Shown: in pieces, positions 24,591 to 30,488 of the stretch | How the letters are laid out: every line of letters starts with the position of its first letter | How positions within the stretch are numbered: the stretch's first letter is position 1 | From: Candidatus Peregrinibacteria bacterium RIFOXYA2_FULL_41_18 | GTDB lineage: Bacteria > Patescibacteriota > Gracilibacteria > UBA1369 > UBA12470 | Reading direction: 5' to 3' | DNA: 64,000 nt | Assembly: GCA_001788795.1 (NCBI GenBank) | Contig: MFXH01000009.1 | Coordinates: forward strand, 1 to 64,000 | Notes under the pieces: generated by a model | What the model was told of the DNA's origin: nothing | The model's database searches: none | What the model saw: only the letters and a program-made list of their open reading frames with translations | Made by a program: the position numbers and the translations under genes

Positions 24591-25133
24591 CTATACCGGT
24601 AAGATTTCGATAATCTCCTCTGCTTTTTCTTCCGGATCTCTGTCGTCAGAGTTGTCGTAAACGAAATCGGCGTATTTCATGTAAGTCGATTTCCTTTCTT
24701 CCCATATTTGTTCGAGCTCTTTCTTGAGCGATTTATGGCAGGTGAGTGGGGGACGTGTTTTGCTGAATTCGATTCGTTTTTTCAGGGTTTCGATGTCTGC
24801 TGTAAGAAGGATTATAAATCCGTTTTTCTTGAGTAATTTTGCGGATTTTTCATTGGTCAAAGTTCCGCCACCCGTTGAAATTATAAGATTGTTTCTTTTG
24901 GCGATATCGGCAACAGCTTGCTCTTCGAGATTTCTGAAGTGAGTCCATCCATGTGTTTCCACTATTTGAGCAATTTTTTTGTTCACAGATCGCTCGATGT
25001 ATCTGTCGAGATCAACAAATTCGTGGCCTAAATTTGCCGCTATTATTTCACCCAAAGTACTCTTGCCGCAACCGCGCATACCGGTAAGAATAATGTTCTT
25101 AGTTTTTTTGTTTTTTTTCTGAGATGTGCTCAT
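24591..25133 (-). CDS. aroK: Shikimate kinase
   Basis: ILTGMRGCGKSTLGEIIAANLGHEFVDLDRYIE; GGGTLT; RPPL. Confidence 0.9.
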   Translation of the reverse strand: MSTSQKKNKKTKNIILTGMRGCGKSTLGEIIAANLGHEFVDLDRYIERSVNKKIAQIVETHGWTHFRNLEEQAVADIAKRNNLIISTGGGTLTNEKSAKLLKKNGFIILLTADIETLKKRIEFSKTRPPLTCHKSLKKELEQIWEERKSTYMKYADFVYDNSDDRDPEEKAEEIIEILPV

Positions 25134-26277
25134 ATTCTTTGAGTAAAAGAAGTGCGAGCAAAGTTGTAACCGAGCTTATTATAATCGGTATTTCATCTCC
25201 AAAGGAAGAGCCTATTGGGCCGAATACAAAAGAACTTAATGCGATAGCTGAAGTTTGTGTTAATGTAATAAGTCCTGAGTTTCCGCCAATCCGTTCTTTT
25301 TTGAAAAGTTCAGAAACTCCAGTATAAAGAAATACAAACATCATTGCGTCGCCCGATTCGTGAATTATTCTGCCTAATAGAGAGATAGGAATGATTGGAA
25401 TTATCATTATCAGATATCCGATTCCGGAGAATAATAATCCTAGTGTTACAATTGTTTTCATTTTTGTGCCTTTTTCCAACGAGCGATTTGATAATCTTAC
25501 TGTTGCGAACATGCATATGATTGCGGTTCCCATGTATGCGCCCATTTGAGGGAAAGTGAGTCCGAGTGTGTTTTTTAGAAACGGTCCATAAGATGTGAAT
25601 TCAGATCCCATATGGATTGCGAACGAGAAGATTATTGCCATGAAAAGCAAAACATGAGGTTTTTTGATGTCTTCTTTATAAGACTTCATATCGAATTTAA
25701 AAGTATCCGTGCTTGGTAGTAAAAATGATAAAACGAGTAATGTTGCAATCAGGCTGCTGGTTATTAATAAATATTTTTGAAAATCCATGTGAGCTAAGAC
25801 GTTTCCACTGAATAAGACTCCCAATCCTGCTCCGAGAAGATAGAAGCTGACGAATGTTTTTATCCTTTTTGAAGGTTTTTCTCCTTCAGATGTCTTGTAG
25901 AATAAGCTATCCATCGATACGTTATAAAGTTGTGAGCCGAATCCTCCTAAGAAAAATAGTATTAGCATTATCGTGAAAGACTGAGTGTTGCTTAGAATTA
26001 AGTATTGAAACAGCATTAATATTAATCCAAGTTGGATAATTCTTTTTGAAGGGATCCTGTCATTTAAAAGTCCTCCTGGGAGAGTTATTAACAGCCCCGT
26101 TATCGTGAAAATTGCGAAAAGTATTCCGGACTCTATTCCGTTTAATCCTATTTGTGCGAAATATATTGCCCAAAAGAATCCAAGGGAGTTGGTTGTAAAT
26201 CTTTGGATGCTATGGATTAAGGTGAGGAGATGTAAGGTTTTTTTGTGCATTTGTTGTAATGAGTTTTGCTGGTGCAA
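25099..26277 (-). CDS. MFS transporter in the aro cluster (start possibly 26250)
   Basis: 12-TM pattern, PGGLLNDRIPSKRIIQLGL; overlaps aroK. Confidence 0.85.
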   Translation of the reverse strand: MHQQNSLQQMHKKTLHLLTLIHSIQRFTTNSLGFFWAIYFAQIGLNGIESGILFAIFTITGLLITLPGGLLNDRIPSKRIIQLGLILMLFQYLILSNTQSFTIMLILFFLGGFGSQLYNVSMDSLFYKTSEGEKPSKRIKTFVSFYLLGAGLGVLFSGNVLAHMDFQKYLLITSSLIATLLVLSFLLPSTDTFKFDMKSYKEDIKKPHVLLFMAIIFSFAIHMGSEFTSYGPFLKNTLGLTFPQMGAYMGTAIICMFATVRLSNRSLEKGTKMKTIVTLGLLFSGIGYLIMIIPIIPISLLGRIIHESGDAMMFVFLYTGVSELFKKERIGGNSGLITLTQTSAIALSSFVFGPIGSSFGDEIPIIISSVTTLLALLLLKEYEHISEKKQKN

Positions 26278-26344
26278 AACAGTTTATATTATGGCGCGAG
26301 GAGCGCTTCCTGCCTACCGGACAGGCAGGCGCTTCCTTGCGCTG
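26261..26344. repeat. Double-hairpin intergenic element, copy E1, overlapping the aroA 3' end
   Basis: GAGTTTTGCTGGTGCAAAACAGTTTATATTATGGCGCGAGGAGCGCTTCCTGCCTACCGGACAGGCAGGCGCTTCCTTGCGCTG. Confidence 0.8.
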
Positions 26345-27474
26345 TTATAATCTTTCCAGAAGTTCGGATATGTTTTTTTTACGCAAGACGGGTTGAGTAT
26401 TTTTATACCATTTATTCTCGATTTTAATATTGCTGCGCACATTGCCATTCGGTGATCATTATATGTTTCGATTGTTGCCGGTTTTGGGTTTGGTGTGCCT
26501 GTTATTTCGAGTCCGTCTTCAAGCTCTATTACGGTTGCACCTATTTTTGAAAGTTCTGTTTTGAGGGCGTGAAGTCGATTTGTTTCTTTGAATCTAAGGT
26601 TATGGAGGCCTGTTAATGTGCTTTTTCCGTTTGCGAAACATGCTATGGTTGCAAGTGTCATTGCGGAGTCGGGGAGATCTCTTAAGTTTACTTTGCCGAG
26701 TGGTTTTAGGTTTTTTGGTGCGATGCAACTAATCCCTTCGTGATCTTCTTTTATTTCGTATCCCATTTTTTGCAAGTATTTGAGCATTTTAATGTCTGCT
26801 TGAAGACTATGCTGGCTTATGTTGAGGACTTTTACCGAACCGAGTGCGAAGAAGTAACTTGCGCTTGATGCATCTGTTTCTATTGTGTATGGCGTACGAA
26901 AATTCTTGATTATGTCTTTTGTCATTTCTATATATGGCTTTGATACTGTTTTGCCGATTATTTTTATTCTGGGGTTCCCAAGCAGCTTTTTTGCCATCAA
27001 AAGTCCAGATATGAATTGGCTGCTTATAAATCCGTTTATTTCTATTGTTTTTAATTTTAGATTTGGGTTGCCATGAATTGTGAGTGGAGGACATCCGTTT
27101 GGTGATTCAATTACGGGTAGTGCTTTTATTATGTCGTGCATTGGGCGCGATTGCATTTGTTTATTTCCGGTGATGCGTGATGTGAAATTTTGGGTTGCGA
27201 GTATTGGAATCAAAAATCTTATCGCGGTTCCCGAATTGCCTATGTTTAGTGTTTTCCGAGGTTTCTGGAAGCGCTTGCCGAGGCCGTGAACTATCATTTG
27301 TGAATCATTTTTTTGTTCAATCTTTACGCCGAGTGCGCGAAGAGCTTTTATTAGATTTCTTGAGTCTTCGCAAAGTAGTGGATTTTTGAGAACTGTTTTT
27401 TCTTTGCGAATGCTCGCAAGGACTAGTGCTCGCGCCATATAGCTTTTCGATCCGGGTACTTTTATTTTGATCAT
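26314..27474 (-). CDS. aroA: 3-phosphoshikimate 1-carboxyvinyltransferase (EPSP synthase)
   Basis: VPGSKSYMARALVLASI; NIGNSGTAIRFL; GNKQMQSRPM; RFKETNRLHAL; TYNDHRMAMCAAI. Confidence 0.93.
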   Translation of the reverse strand: MIKIKVPGSKSYMARALVLASIRKEKTVLKNPLLCEDSRNLIKALRALGVKIEQKNDSQMIVHGLGKRFQKPRKTLNIGNSGTAIRFLIPILATQNFTSRITGNKQMQSRPMHDIIKALPVIESPNGCPPLTIHGNPNLKLKTIEINGFISSQFISGLLMAKKLLGNPRIKIIGKTVSKPYIEMTKDIIKNFRTPYTIETDASSASYFFALGSVKVLNISQHSLQADIKMLKYLQKMGYEIKEDHEGISCIAPKNLKPLGKVNLRDLPDSAMTLATIACFANGKSTLTGLHNLRFKETNRLHALKTELSKIGATVIELEDGLEITGTPNPKPATIETYNDHRMAMCAAILKSRINGIKILNPSCVKKTYPNFWKDYNSARKRLPVR

Positions 27475-28394
27475 AGCGTTGATATTTTTGCAGATCCTAT
27501 TTTTTCTAGCGTAATAAATCTTAACTTGTTTCCGGTTTTTTTCTTATCTGTTTGCATGAGGTTTTCGATTTTTTTCTTGTCTAAATTTGTTTCTGTCGGT
27601 AGTCCATATAGTTTTAATAATTTTTCAACTATTTTTGTTGCCGGTGATTTTGAGAGTAGGTTTACTTGGTGCATACCGATCGAAATCGCTTCTCCGTGGC
27701 TTAATTTGTAATTCGAAGCTTGTTCGATGGCGTGACCGATGGTGTGTCCGTAATTTAGCAACATTCTTGTGTCTTTCTCTAGGTAATCCAGTTCTGTTAT
27801 TTTCTCTTTTATTGACGAGGATTGAATAATTAATTTGTTCAAGATGTCGGGGTCTTTTGCGAGAATCTTTTTGTGATTTTTTTCAAGAAATTCAAATAGC
27901 GATTCGCTTTTTATGCATGCGTGTTTAATACATTCGGCTATGCCGTTTTTCAATTCTTTTACAGGTAGTGTCTTAAGTAGTGCGGGTTCTACAATTCTTT
28001 TTGTCGGATTGTAAAAAGTTCCTATTAGATTTTTACCTGTTTTAAGATTTACTCCAGTCTTGCCACCTATGCTCGAATCTATCATCGCGAGAAGAGTAGT
28101 TGGGACTTGAATATAAGGGATCCCTCGCATATAAATTGACGCGAGGAATCCCGTAAAATCTCCTATTACTCCGCCTCCGAATGCAATCAAGCAGCTTCCT
28201 CTGTCGAGTCCTAATTCCGTGAGTTTTTCTGCGGTTTTTTCGATGTTTGCGAGTGACTTTTGTTTTTCACCGGAAATTTGGATTATCACGTCGAAACCTT
28301 TTAATTCTTTACCGTAGAATTTGTATAAGTTTTTATCCGTTATTATGCAGTAACGGTTGTATGGGAGGTTTTTTGTGAGTTCACTTAAATTCAT
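27471..28394 (-). CDS. aroB: 3-dehydroquinate synthase
   Basis: GGGVIGDFTGFLASIYMRGIPYIQVPTTLLAMIDSSIGGKTGVN; NYGHTIGHAIE; HGEAISIGM. Confidence 0.95.
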   Translation of the reverse strand: MNLSELTKNLPYNRYCIITDKNLYKFYGKELKGFDVIIQISGEKQKSLANIEKTAEKLTELGLDRGSCLIAFGGGVIGDFTGFLASIYMRGIPYIQVPTTLLAMIDSSIGGKTGVNLKTGKNLIGTFYNPTKRIVEPALLKTLPVKELKNGIAECIKHACIKSESLFEFLEKNHKKILAKDPDILNKLIIQSSSIKEKITELDYLEKDTRMLLNYGHTIGHAIEQASNYKLSHGEAISIGMHQVNLLSKSPATKIVEKLLKLYGLPTETNLDKKKIENLMQTDKKKTGNKLRFITLEKIGSAKISTL

Positions 28395-29419
28395 TTTCTT
28401 TGTTTAGGTAGTTCCTTGTCAACAGCAACTGCTACAAGATTAAGTTTTGCCATCATATTGTCGAAGGCTTCAGGCGTAATTGATTGATCTCCATCTGTTA
28501 ATGCTTCTGCAGGGTTTGGATGGACTTCAATCATGAGTCCGTCAGCTCCGGCTGCTACTGCTGCCAATGCGACAGGGCAAACTAAGCTTGCGATACCTGT
28601 TGCGTGGCTTGGATCTACAATCAATGGAAGGTGGCTTAATTCTTTTATTCGAGCGACTGCCCCAATCGATAGAGTGTTTCTCATGTCATCTTCGTAAGTT
28701 CTAATACCTCGTTCGCATAGGATTACTTTTTGATTCCCTCCGGCCAAGATGTATTCAGCCGCAAGTAGGAATTCTTTTAGGGTTGCGCAGAGTCCTCTTT
28801 TTAACAGCACGGGTTTTTTGATTTTTCCAAGTTCTTTTAGCATTGTGAAGTTCTGCATATTTCTAGCTCCTACTTGGAAGATGTCAGTGTATTTGCCGAT
28901 GACGTCTATTTGGCTTGAGTCCATGACTTCCGTGATTACAAGCATATCGTTTTCATCGGCGGCTTTTCTGATCATCTTCAGCCCTTTTTCTTCATGTCCT
29001 TGGAATGAGTATGGGGTTGTTCGCGGTTTGAACGCGCCTCCTCTTAAGATTTTTGCTCCCGATCTTGAAACTGCTCTTGCCGTTAGGCTCATCTGTTCTT
29101 GGCTCTCGATACTGCAAGGGCCTGCCATGATTGAGAGCTCTTTTCCGCCGATTTTTATTCCGTTGATGTCTATTACTGTATCTTCGTTTTTTGTTTCTCG
29201 TGCGGCAAGTTTGTAAGGTTTGAGTACAGGCATTACATTGCTGACGCTCGGGAGGGCGCGAAGGTGATTGATGTCTAGTAAGCGTTCATCTCCGATTACT
29301 GCGATTACCGTGCGTTCGGTTCCGTATAATGGAACAGGTTTTAGTTTCTGCGATTCAAGTTCATTTATGATGTGTTCGATGTGCTCTTTTGGAGCGAATC
29401 GTTTCATTACTATAATCAT
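28391..29419 (-). CDS. 3-deoxy-7-phosphoheptulonate (DAHP) synthase with N-terminal ferredoxin-like domain
   Basis: MAGPCSIESQEQM; LRGGAFKPRTTPYSFQG; LKRGLCATLKEFLLAAEYI; LPLIVDPSHATG. Confidence 0.94.
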   Translation of the reverse strand: MIIVMKRFAPKEHIEHIINELESQKLKPVPLYGTERTVIAVIGDERLLDINHLRALPSVSNVMPVLKPYKLAARETKNEDTVIDINGIKIGGKELSIMAGPCSIESQEQMSLTARAVSRSGAKILRGGAFKPRTTPYSFQGHEEKGLKMIRKAADENDMLVITEVMDSSQIDVIGKYTDIFQVGARNMQNFTMLKELGKIKKPVLLKRGLCATLKEFLLAAEYILAGGNQKVILCERGIRTYEDDMRNTLSIGAVARIKELSHLPLIVDPSHATGIASLVCPVALAAVAAGADGLMIEVHPNPAEALTDGDQSITPEAFDNMMAKLNLVAVAVDKELPKQRK

Positions 29420-29540
29420 ATTGTTGGGAGTTAGTAGATTGTAGGTTGCAGATTGCAGATTAGAATGCCTGATAAAGATAAGGTTTCCTTGTTATTTGTG
29501 CAAATTTTTGTGTTGTGTGTGTACCCATGGTTTTTTTGGT

Positions 29541-29611
29541 TAAAAAATAAAAAGGCCCCATGTTTTGCATGAGGTTTGGGTTTATTGTGCTGAAAAATCA
29601 CATCCTCATGC
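29541..29611 (-). promoter_or_regulatory. Transcription attenuator: mutually exclusive antiterminator/terminator for the aro operon
   Basis: Minus strand: A=GCATGAGG (29604-29611, contains leader stop TGA), B=CCTCATGC (29567-29574), C=CATGGGG (29555-29561), then CCTTTTTATTTTTT. A:B is a perfect 8-bp stem; B:C forms the terminator. Confidence 0.8.
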
Positions 29612-29662
29612 TAGGGGGTTAAAGTAGAAGTAAAATGCGAATTGTGAACGGAGTGTTTGCAT
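29606..29662 (-). CDS. Phe/Tyr-rich leader peptide MQTLRSQFAFYFYFNPLA*
   Basis: ATG CAA ACA CTC CGT TCA CAA TTC GCA TTT TAC TTC TAC TTT AAC CCC CTA GCA TGA on the minus strand, between promoter and terminator upstream of the DAHP synthase gene. Confidence 0.8.
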   Translation of the reverse strand: MQTLRSQFAFYFYFNPLA

Positions 29663-29681
29663 GTGATGTGTTTGTGATTAG

Positions 29682-29710
29682 CTTTTACTGCTAAATTTTT
29701 AAAAAGTCAA
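29682..29710 (-). promoter_or_regulatory. Sigma70-type promoter of the aro leader
   Basis: TTGACT-17-TAAAAG, about 20 nt upstream of the leader ATG. Confidence 0.6.
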
Positions 29711-29777
29711 TTTTTATTGTTGGTTGAGATTTTTAAGAACTTATGGCTTACTTCCTATGTCTTATGACCTACGACTT

Positions 29778-30488
29778 ATGACTTACGTCTTGCAAGACAC
29801 TCATGCTCATCTCGATTTTTCGGCTTTTGATAAGGATAGGGAAGCTGTGATTGAAAGGGCGAGAAAAGCAGGTTTGCAGAAAATTATTTGTGTCGGGTGT
29901 GACCTTTTGTCTTCCGATAGGTCTATTGAGTTGGCGAAAAAATATGATTTTATTTATGCCTCAATAGGTGTTCATCCGTCTGATGCTGACAAGTGGAATA
30001 CGGATTTGGCGAGCAAATTTATTGTTCAAGCGAAAGAAGAGCAGAAAGTGGTTTCTATAGGCGAGATCGGTTTGGATTATTTCCATTTGGATCATCCTAA
30101 AGAGTTGCAAAAGCGTGTGTTTCGAGAGCAGCTCGATTTGGCGAAGCAGCTTGGGTTGCCTGTGTGTGTGCATATGAGGGAGTCGGCTTCGGATGTTTAT
30201 GATGTGCTTATTGATTCTGGAATTGAGCAAGTGACACTGCATTGTTTTAATGAAGGATTGGAGTTTGCGCAAAAGGCGTGGGCTAGGGGATGGGTGCTTG
30301 GGTTTGGGGGAACAATTACTTATCCGAAAAATGAGGAGTTGCGCAAAGTTGTTGCTGCGTGTCCTTCTGAATTGTTTGTGCTTGAGACCGATTGTCCGTT
30401 TTTGCCTCCGCAAAGCCATAGGGGAGAACGAAATGAGCCGGTGTATGTGATTGAGGTAGCGAAGATGGTTAGTGCCTTAAGGAGTTAG
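29778..30488 (+). CDS. TatD-family metal-dependent hydrolase (start likely 29778)
   Basis: DTHAHLDFSAFDKD; ASIGVHPSDAD; SIGEIGLDYF; FVLETDCPFLPPQSHRGERNEP. Confidence 0.93.
   Translation: MTYVLQDTHAHLDFSAFDKDREAVIERARKAGLQKIICVGCDLLSSDRSIELAKKYDFIYASIGVHPSDADKWNTDLASKFIVQAKEEQKVVSIGEIGLDYFHLDHPKELQKRVFREQLDLAKQLGLPVCVHMRESASDVYDVLIDSGIEQVTLHCFNEGLEFAQKAWARGWVLGFGGTITYPKNEELRKVVAACPSELFVLETDCPFLPPQSHRGERNEPVYVIEVAKMVSALRS

Follow-up and report, generated by a model that had tools for sequence, protein, structure and literature searches.

We describe a putative ribosome-mediated transcription attenuator upstream of the shikimate operon of a member of the Peregrinibacteria, an organism known from metagenomes, in which the availability of charged tRNA-Phe and tRNA-Tyr very probably sets the transcription of the operon. 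A sequence-only reading of the region had proposed attenuation of the Phe/Tyr type, and comparison across the order supports that proposal, with the leader and both of its alternative pairings (A:B and B:C) conserved. In the predicted mechanism, RNA polymerase would start some 13 nt upstream of the ATG of the leader. With uncharged tRNA-Phe or tRNA-Tyr, the ribosome would stall on the run of Phe and Tyr codons, leaving segment A, just beyond its footprint, free to pair with segment B once the latter emerges; segment C would then stay single-stranded and transcription would read through into the DAHP synthase gene. If the leader is completed instead, the ribosome resting on the TGA stop codon would cover A, the B:C hairpin would form and transcription would terminate in the U tract. 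When the leader is left untranslated, a further segment (segment 1) would pair with A, so that B:C would form again and the operon would be off; since this start-codon region would protect A without translation, the arrangement would provide the full four-segment logic (1:2 / 2:3 / 3:4). We infer the start site, the stalling, the termination and the derepression in the cell from the arrangement of these elements in the DNA.

Genomic context of the shikimate operon

The window, by which we mean the whole 64 kb stretch of DNA analysed here, belongs as contig C9 to a 99% complete genome of 1.24 Mb. Its origin in a CPR genome, which the sequence-only reading had guessed, was borne out by its assignment to the Peregrinibacteria (Patescibacteria/CPR): named genomes of Candidatus Peregrinibacteria encode DAHP synthases with 90% and 76% identity to that of the window. 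Matches to Pfam and NCBIfam likewise upheld the proposed order of genes, all of which lie on the minus strand. The operon begins with an aroF-like DAHP synthase with a ferredoxin-like N-terminal domain (28391..29419; NF006421, TIGR01361, PF00793, PF18152), followed at a 4-nt overlap by aroB, encoding 3-dehydroquinate synthase (27471..28394; TIGR01357, over cut-off), and by aroA, encoding EPSP synthase (26314..27474; TIGR01356, over cut-off). A predicted MFS transporter (25099..26277; PF07690) and aroK, encoding shikimate kinase (24591..25133; PF01202), complete the series. The neighbour on the other side of the aro leader is a TatD gene in divergent orientation, and the leader terminator can therefore act only on aro-bound transcripts. 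Low-complexity short repeats (CATAAGTCGTAGGTCATAAG... and AATCTGCAATCTGCAACCTACAATCTAC...) are found at about 29741-29795 and at 29421-29461 of the window, and recur elsewhere in the genome.

Promoter and leader reading frame

The promoter proposed for the leader is present on the minus strand at 29682..29710, where a -35 element TTGACT (29710-29705) is separated by a 17-nt spacer from a -10 element TAAAAG (29687-29682). The latter is weak, missing the final T, and for this reason a scan for consensus promoters did not report the window promoter, which has 9 of 12 matches overall. Transcription from it is expected to start about 13 nt before the ATG of an 18-codon open reading frame, MQTLRSQFAFYFYFNPLA (29606..29662, minus strand), which ends with the stop codon TGA at 29608-29606. 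Six of seven consecutive positions in this leader peptide are aromatic. When the 500 nt preceding DAHP synthase were dinucleotide-shuffled 500 times, no short ORF with at least six aromatic residues in eight codons arose, and no other ORF on the minus strand of the 64 kb window has such an aromatic run, the plus strand having two. A Shine-Dalgarno sequence is absent from the leader ORF and also from the second small ORF (uORF2) described below. Shine-Dalgarno-like motifs occur at only 1 to 4 of the 41 genes in the window, where starts are A/U-rich and G-poor, and initiation on unstructured RNA is thus normal here.

Switch segments and folding

The segments postulated for the switch were all recovered on the minus strand at the positions originally assigned to them. 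Segment A (GCATGAGG, 29611-29604) lies over the TGA stop codon of the leader and, when extended by ATGTG, spans 29599..29611. Segment B (CCTCATGC, 29567..29574) can pair either with A, as an antiterminator, or with segment C (CATGGGG, 29556..29562), the 3′ arm of an intrinsic terminator that a terminator scan predicts between the leader and DAHP synthase (29574-29541). Segment C is followed by CCTTTTTATTTTTT, and the U-rich tract of the terminator, CCTTTTTATTTTTTA, occupies 29541..29555. The A:B duplex is a perfect 8 bp, as had been claimed, B:C comprises 7 bp including one G-U, and the two are mutually exclusive through their common arm B.

The minimum free energy (MFE) fold of the whole leader contains, alongside the terminator, a further pairing that was absent from the sequence-only reading. 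Segment 1 (CACATCACATGC, 29659..29670, minus strand), which lies over the leader start codon, forms 11 bp with GCATGAGGATGTG (29611-29599), a pairing equalled in just 3 of 200 shuffles of the window sequence. Segments 1 and B have CATGC in common, which enables A to pair with either of them. The 132-nt leader as a whole folds better than its shuffles (z -2.2). The terminator hairpin taken alone has a short stem and does no better than shuffles (z -0.64), so that the case rests mainly on comparison between genomes.

Folding was examined in both states, as suggested beforehand, and gave the terminator with A blocked. In stepwise folding of the growing window transcript with A free, A:B (-13.1 kcal/mol) forms once B is out and while C is still incomplete. 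At equilibrium, the terminator state of the full window fragment, from A to the U tract, beats A:B (-14.8 against -13.1), and the addition of 9 extra upstream nt to the fragment lets A:B win. Since the finished fragment slightly favours the terminator, antitermination would rely on the order of folding, a kinetic decision as in the classical cases. The geometry of stalling and stopping was judged by the size of the ribosome footprint. In the window, the final Phe codon begins 12 nt before segment A, which overlaps the stop codon, and the proposed layout, in which A would be clear of a ribosome stalled on the control codons, fits these distances. The RNA-binding domain of Rho was not found in the 99% complete source genome (G000), which makes intrinsic termination the plausible off-switch.

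Conservation across the order and phylum

The search covered the 90 genomes of the order, 59 of which have DAHP synthase, yielding 55 loci with at least 300 nt of upstream sequence. Defining a leader as a short ORF with at least five aromatic codons in eight, we found one at 36 of the 55 DAHP-synthase loci, the remaining 19 having none by this definition; the corresponding frequencies were 4.2% in shuffles and 7/55 on reverse strands. As a control, the same criterion was applied upstream of chorismate-binding enzymes in the same genomes, where it returned 0 of 30. An attenuator at these TrpE/PabB-type enzymes was rejected on this count, Trp leaders there being likewise unconvincing, and no obvious attenuator was seen next to the source genome's own TyrA-PheA fusion or chorismate synthase. 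Aromatic residues make up 41% of the last 16 codons of the leaders, against 4.6% of the remainder, with FWAYFYF, FWFYFYF, WGFFYFYF and FFYFYFF as typical runs in the order.

Comparison of relatives, which the sequence-only reading had proposed as a check, revealed that the aromatic leader is kept and that the stems are re-created by different letters. We also looked for the pattern named there as telling against attenuation, namely hairpins that persist after the aromatic codons or their frame are lost, and found the opposite in the 36 of 55 loci that keep the leader. Over the order loci, the energy of the A:B duplex lies well below that obtained with shuffled A (mean z -3.8). This shuffled-A test is the fair control, whereas mismatched pairs make a biased one, the windows having been selected for their pairing. 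Among 32 loci there are 24 different B sequences, and every B is matched by both the A and the C of its locus. In all 32 of 32, A begins at most 12 nt from the leader stop and B:C forms when A is blocked, and the MFE structure holds A:B in about 25 of the 32 when A is free. Pairing of segment 1 with A is weaker and not universal: with a mean z of -1.3, it reaches p<=0.05 in 12 of the 33 order loci, where 1.7 would be expected.

A terminator with a U tract after the stem is present in most order loci. Promoters with at least 9 of 12 matches lie within 70 nt upstream of the leader in 29 of 36 relatives, against 21% in shuffles, and TTGACN-17-TANNNN recurs just upstream of most relatives' leaders. 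The loci that fit poorly are L030, which is without A:B, and L061, L066 and L107, whose terminators are doubtful.

In the phylum as sampled, DAHP synthase is rare (33 of 384 genomes). Several loci from other Patescibacteria classes have leaders, such as MQNSSHNFYFYFYFTNPGGARG and MSKSTQNFWYFYFTQTAETGNFELKNV, and clear A/B/C segments are found in some other-class loci, for instance L135 and L136. One sub-family (L067, L103, L106, L036, L035 and L037) has longer leaders whose N-terminal part is conserved (KVKIAVLKNPLQWVADLYFYFFDLLGMR), the N-terminal parts of other leaders being free, and in these long leaders the peptide itself perhaps matters. Aromatic-rich short ORFs together with a terminator were also observed upstream of DAHP synthase in Eubacterium callanderi and other Clostridia (L044, L047 and L048), and it is possible that these ORFs are attenuators in Firmicutes.

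Leader codons and pathway end products

The window leader contains Phe and Tyr codons and no Trp codon. The same genome encodes chorismate synthase and a TyrA-PheA protein of 566 aa in which prephenate dehydrogenase and prephenate dehydratase are fused (G000:C11, L142:1240-2937, minus strand). TrpC was not found in this genome and neither was TrpA, for which the single match is a 56-residue stretch (E 1e-5) in a 493-residue frame; we read the weak TrpA matches, in this frame and in frames of 485-495 residues elsewhere, as another TIM-barrel protein. In the sister genome L009, whose DAHP synthase is 90% identical, trpA is present and the leader reads FWAYFYF. A second near pair reads KKPLQW in L067, which has trpA, versus RNPFQF in L103, which does not.

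Across 35 order loci, the presence of a Trp codon in the leader is associated with trpA (with/without Trp codon, 18/1 in the presence of trpA vs 8/8 in its absence; Fisher p = 0.0036), and the association holds when the trpA-minus group is restricted to genomes at least 90% complete (18/1 vs 4/7, p = 0.0011). On the DAHP synthase tree, about 3 independent pairs are concordant and 0.1 discordant, which agrees in direction but is too small a number to reach significance. A Trp codon is also kept in 8 genomes that lack trpA. Because most relatives add Trp codons, the class as a whole would sense three aromatic amino acids and this genome only its two products. Our reading is that the leaders may have been trimmed to the end products of the pathway.

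A second conserved reading frame and alternative explanations

Between the terminator and DAHP synthase lies the second small ORF, uORF2 (MGTHTTQKFAQITRKPYLYQAF, 29460..29528, minus strand). Of the 27 order loci in which this interval is long enough, 26 have an ORF of at least 15 codons there, where shuffles predict 5.6, and its start lies about 22-41 nt past the terminator in nearly all loci; carriers include L009, L012, L013, L015-L020, L039 and L101-L106. Tyr makes up 12.4% of the last 10 residues of uORF2 versus 1.6% elsewhere and is always preceded by CTT (Leu), GCC (Ala) or TCC (Ser), an end motif that, unlike ORF presence, which was tested against shuffles, was defined post hoc from sequences already seen. 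The fixed codons before Tyr point to selection on the codons or nucleotides of uORF2. The gap between uORF2 and DAHP synthase is nearly G-free. TTAACC before the uORF2 start was considered as a translation start signal and dismissed, not being general in the window. A further candidate promoter within uORF2, which reads TTGCAC-17-TATCTT in the family of the window and TGnTAnAAT in other families, overlaps coding positions of uORF2 in the former and is not relied on, and a role as an anti-Rho device was discarded given that the Rho RNA-binding domain was not found in the genome.

The conservation of uORF2 invites an extension of the attenuator reading, which is our best guess for the role of uORF2 and which we nevertheless hold to be rather unlikely, whereby two regulatory ORFs act in series: the attenuator would govern transcription, and uORF2, with its CTT-TAT or GCC-TAT end, would act as a second sensor, of Tyr or through the nascent peptide, controlling the translation of DAHP synthase. 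The excess of uORF2 over expectation (26/27 against 5.6), its Tyr-rich end and the fixed codons before Tyr favour such a two-tier device, but no RNA structure was seen at the uORF2 end or the DAHP synthase start (mean z -0.11), so that no switch is visible, and uORF2 is missing from four close loci of one genus and from other classes, and is cut short by a TGA in L010. Control of translation only, with the leader governing how ribosomes reach the start of DAHP synthase and with a hairpin that is no terminator, is improbable. The weakness of the terminator stem when taken alone would suit it, as would locus L023 (family f8), where the aromatic codons FWYFYLAL reach into the DAHP synthase start; a U tract nevertheless follows the stem in most loci, and in the window the DAHP synthase start is more than 110 nt away, in unstructured RNA. 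At L023 itself, where FWYFYLALN, read in another frame, extends into the start of DAHP synthase, the arrangement suggests a possible translational version of aromatic control.

Terminator/antiterminator pairs are also used by T-box and riboswitch elements, and on this general ground one might suppose that such an element runs the operon and that the aromatic ORF is incidental. Yet the interval between promoter and terminator is filled by the ORF, and its codon content tracks end products. In 29300-29900, Rfam, including its amino-acid leader families (Phe, Trp and others), gave no match over cut-off and no T-box match even at E up to 5; we rejected the T-box or riboswitch for this lack of an Rfam match and give it hardly any credence. 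It would be just as surprising if the hairpin were a plain terminator of the neighbouring gene beside a chance ORF. Short hairpins with U tracts do arise by chance (0.6 expected per 601 bases), but the upstream neighbour, TatD, is divergent, and across the order the leader has been conserved jointly with A/B/C, which, with the orientation of TatD, refutes this explanation.

Implications of a probable attenuator in Patescibacteria

The sequence-only reading had stated that it knew of no described CPR example of ribosome-mediated attenuation, and we found none for Patescibacteria in the open literature. What appears to be new in this putative class of attenuators is its occurrence in this phylum, the tailoring of its leaders to the pathway, their lack of a Shine-Dalgarno sequence, and a conserved uORF2. 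The usual description of Patescibacteria is of organisms with few genes and little amino acid biosynthesis (PMC11665869). An attenuator in most DAHP-synthase loci of the order would mean that aromatic synthesis is regulated in these cells through tRNA charging and, since attenuation needs it, that translation and transcription are coupled in Peregrinibacteria. Through the association of its Trp codons with the Trp pathway, the leader would be a readable record of the products of each uncultured cell, and the leaders of relatives constitute a natural codon-swap series.

Comparison with known systems

In the pheL and trpL attenuators of E. coli, an aromatic-rich leader is combined with a stop region that forms an arm of the switch and with a four-segment logic (1:2 / 2:3 / 3:4), and the Peregrinibacteria leader resembles pheL-pheA and trpL-trp in each of these respects. 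It differs from pheL, which controls pheA, in standing before DAHP synthase, in having segment 1 on the start codon, and in having neither a Shine-Dalgarno sequence nor an Rfam match. The pheL and trpL attenuators are summarised in PMC11802643, which also describes the E. coli DAHP synthase genes as being under the TyrR and TrpR repressors. According to PMC2659441, which cites a 1980 E. coli study, a Tyr-tRNA attenuator has been predicted computationally for Shewanella aroF; compared by description only, that prediction is similar in proposing attenuation of a DAHP synthase gene by an aromatic tRNA, in another phylum. A survey of 2010 gave Proteobacteria and Actinobacteria as the groups in which leader-peptide systems had been recognised at that time, and added some Firmicutes (PMC2965389).

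The closest known system is the aroR-aroF attenuator of C. glutamicum (Neshat et al. 2014, as presented in PMC11802643; sRNA survey, PMC4046766), in which a Phe-Tyr-Phe leader lies upstream of a DAHP-synthase operon. The account in PMC11802643 has read-through upon ribosome stalling, with a reported response to Phe, Tyr supply reportedly being without effect. Such leaders are so short and variable that they cannot be aligned across phyla, and an independent origin of the C. glutamicum and Peregrinibacteria leaders is as likely as common descent. In both systems, an operon containing DAHP synthase is preceded by a Phe/Tyr leader, but unlike the leader of the Actinobacterium, which has FYF only, those described here carry clusters of about five to seven aromatics, with Trp in most relatives, and are accompanied by a second conserved ORF.
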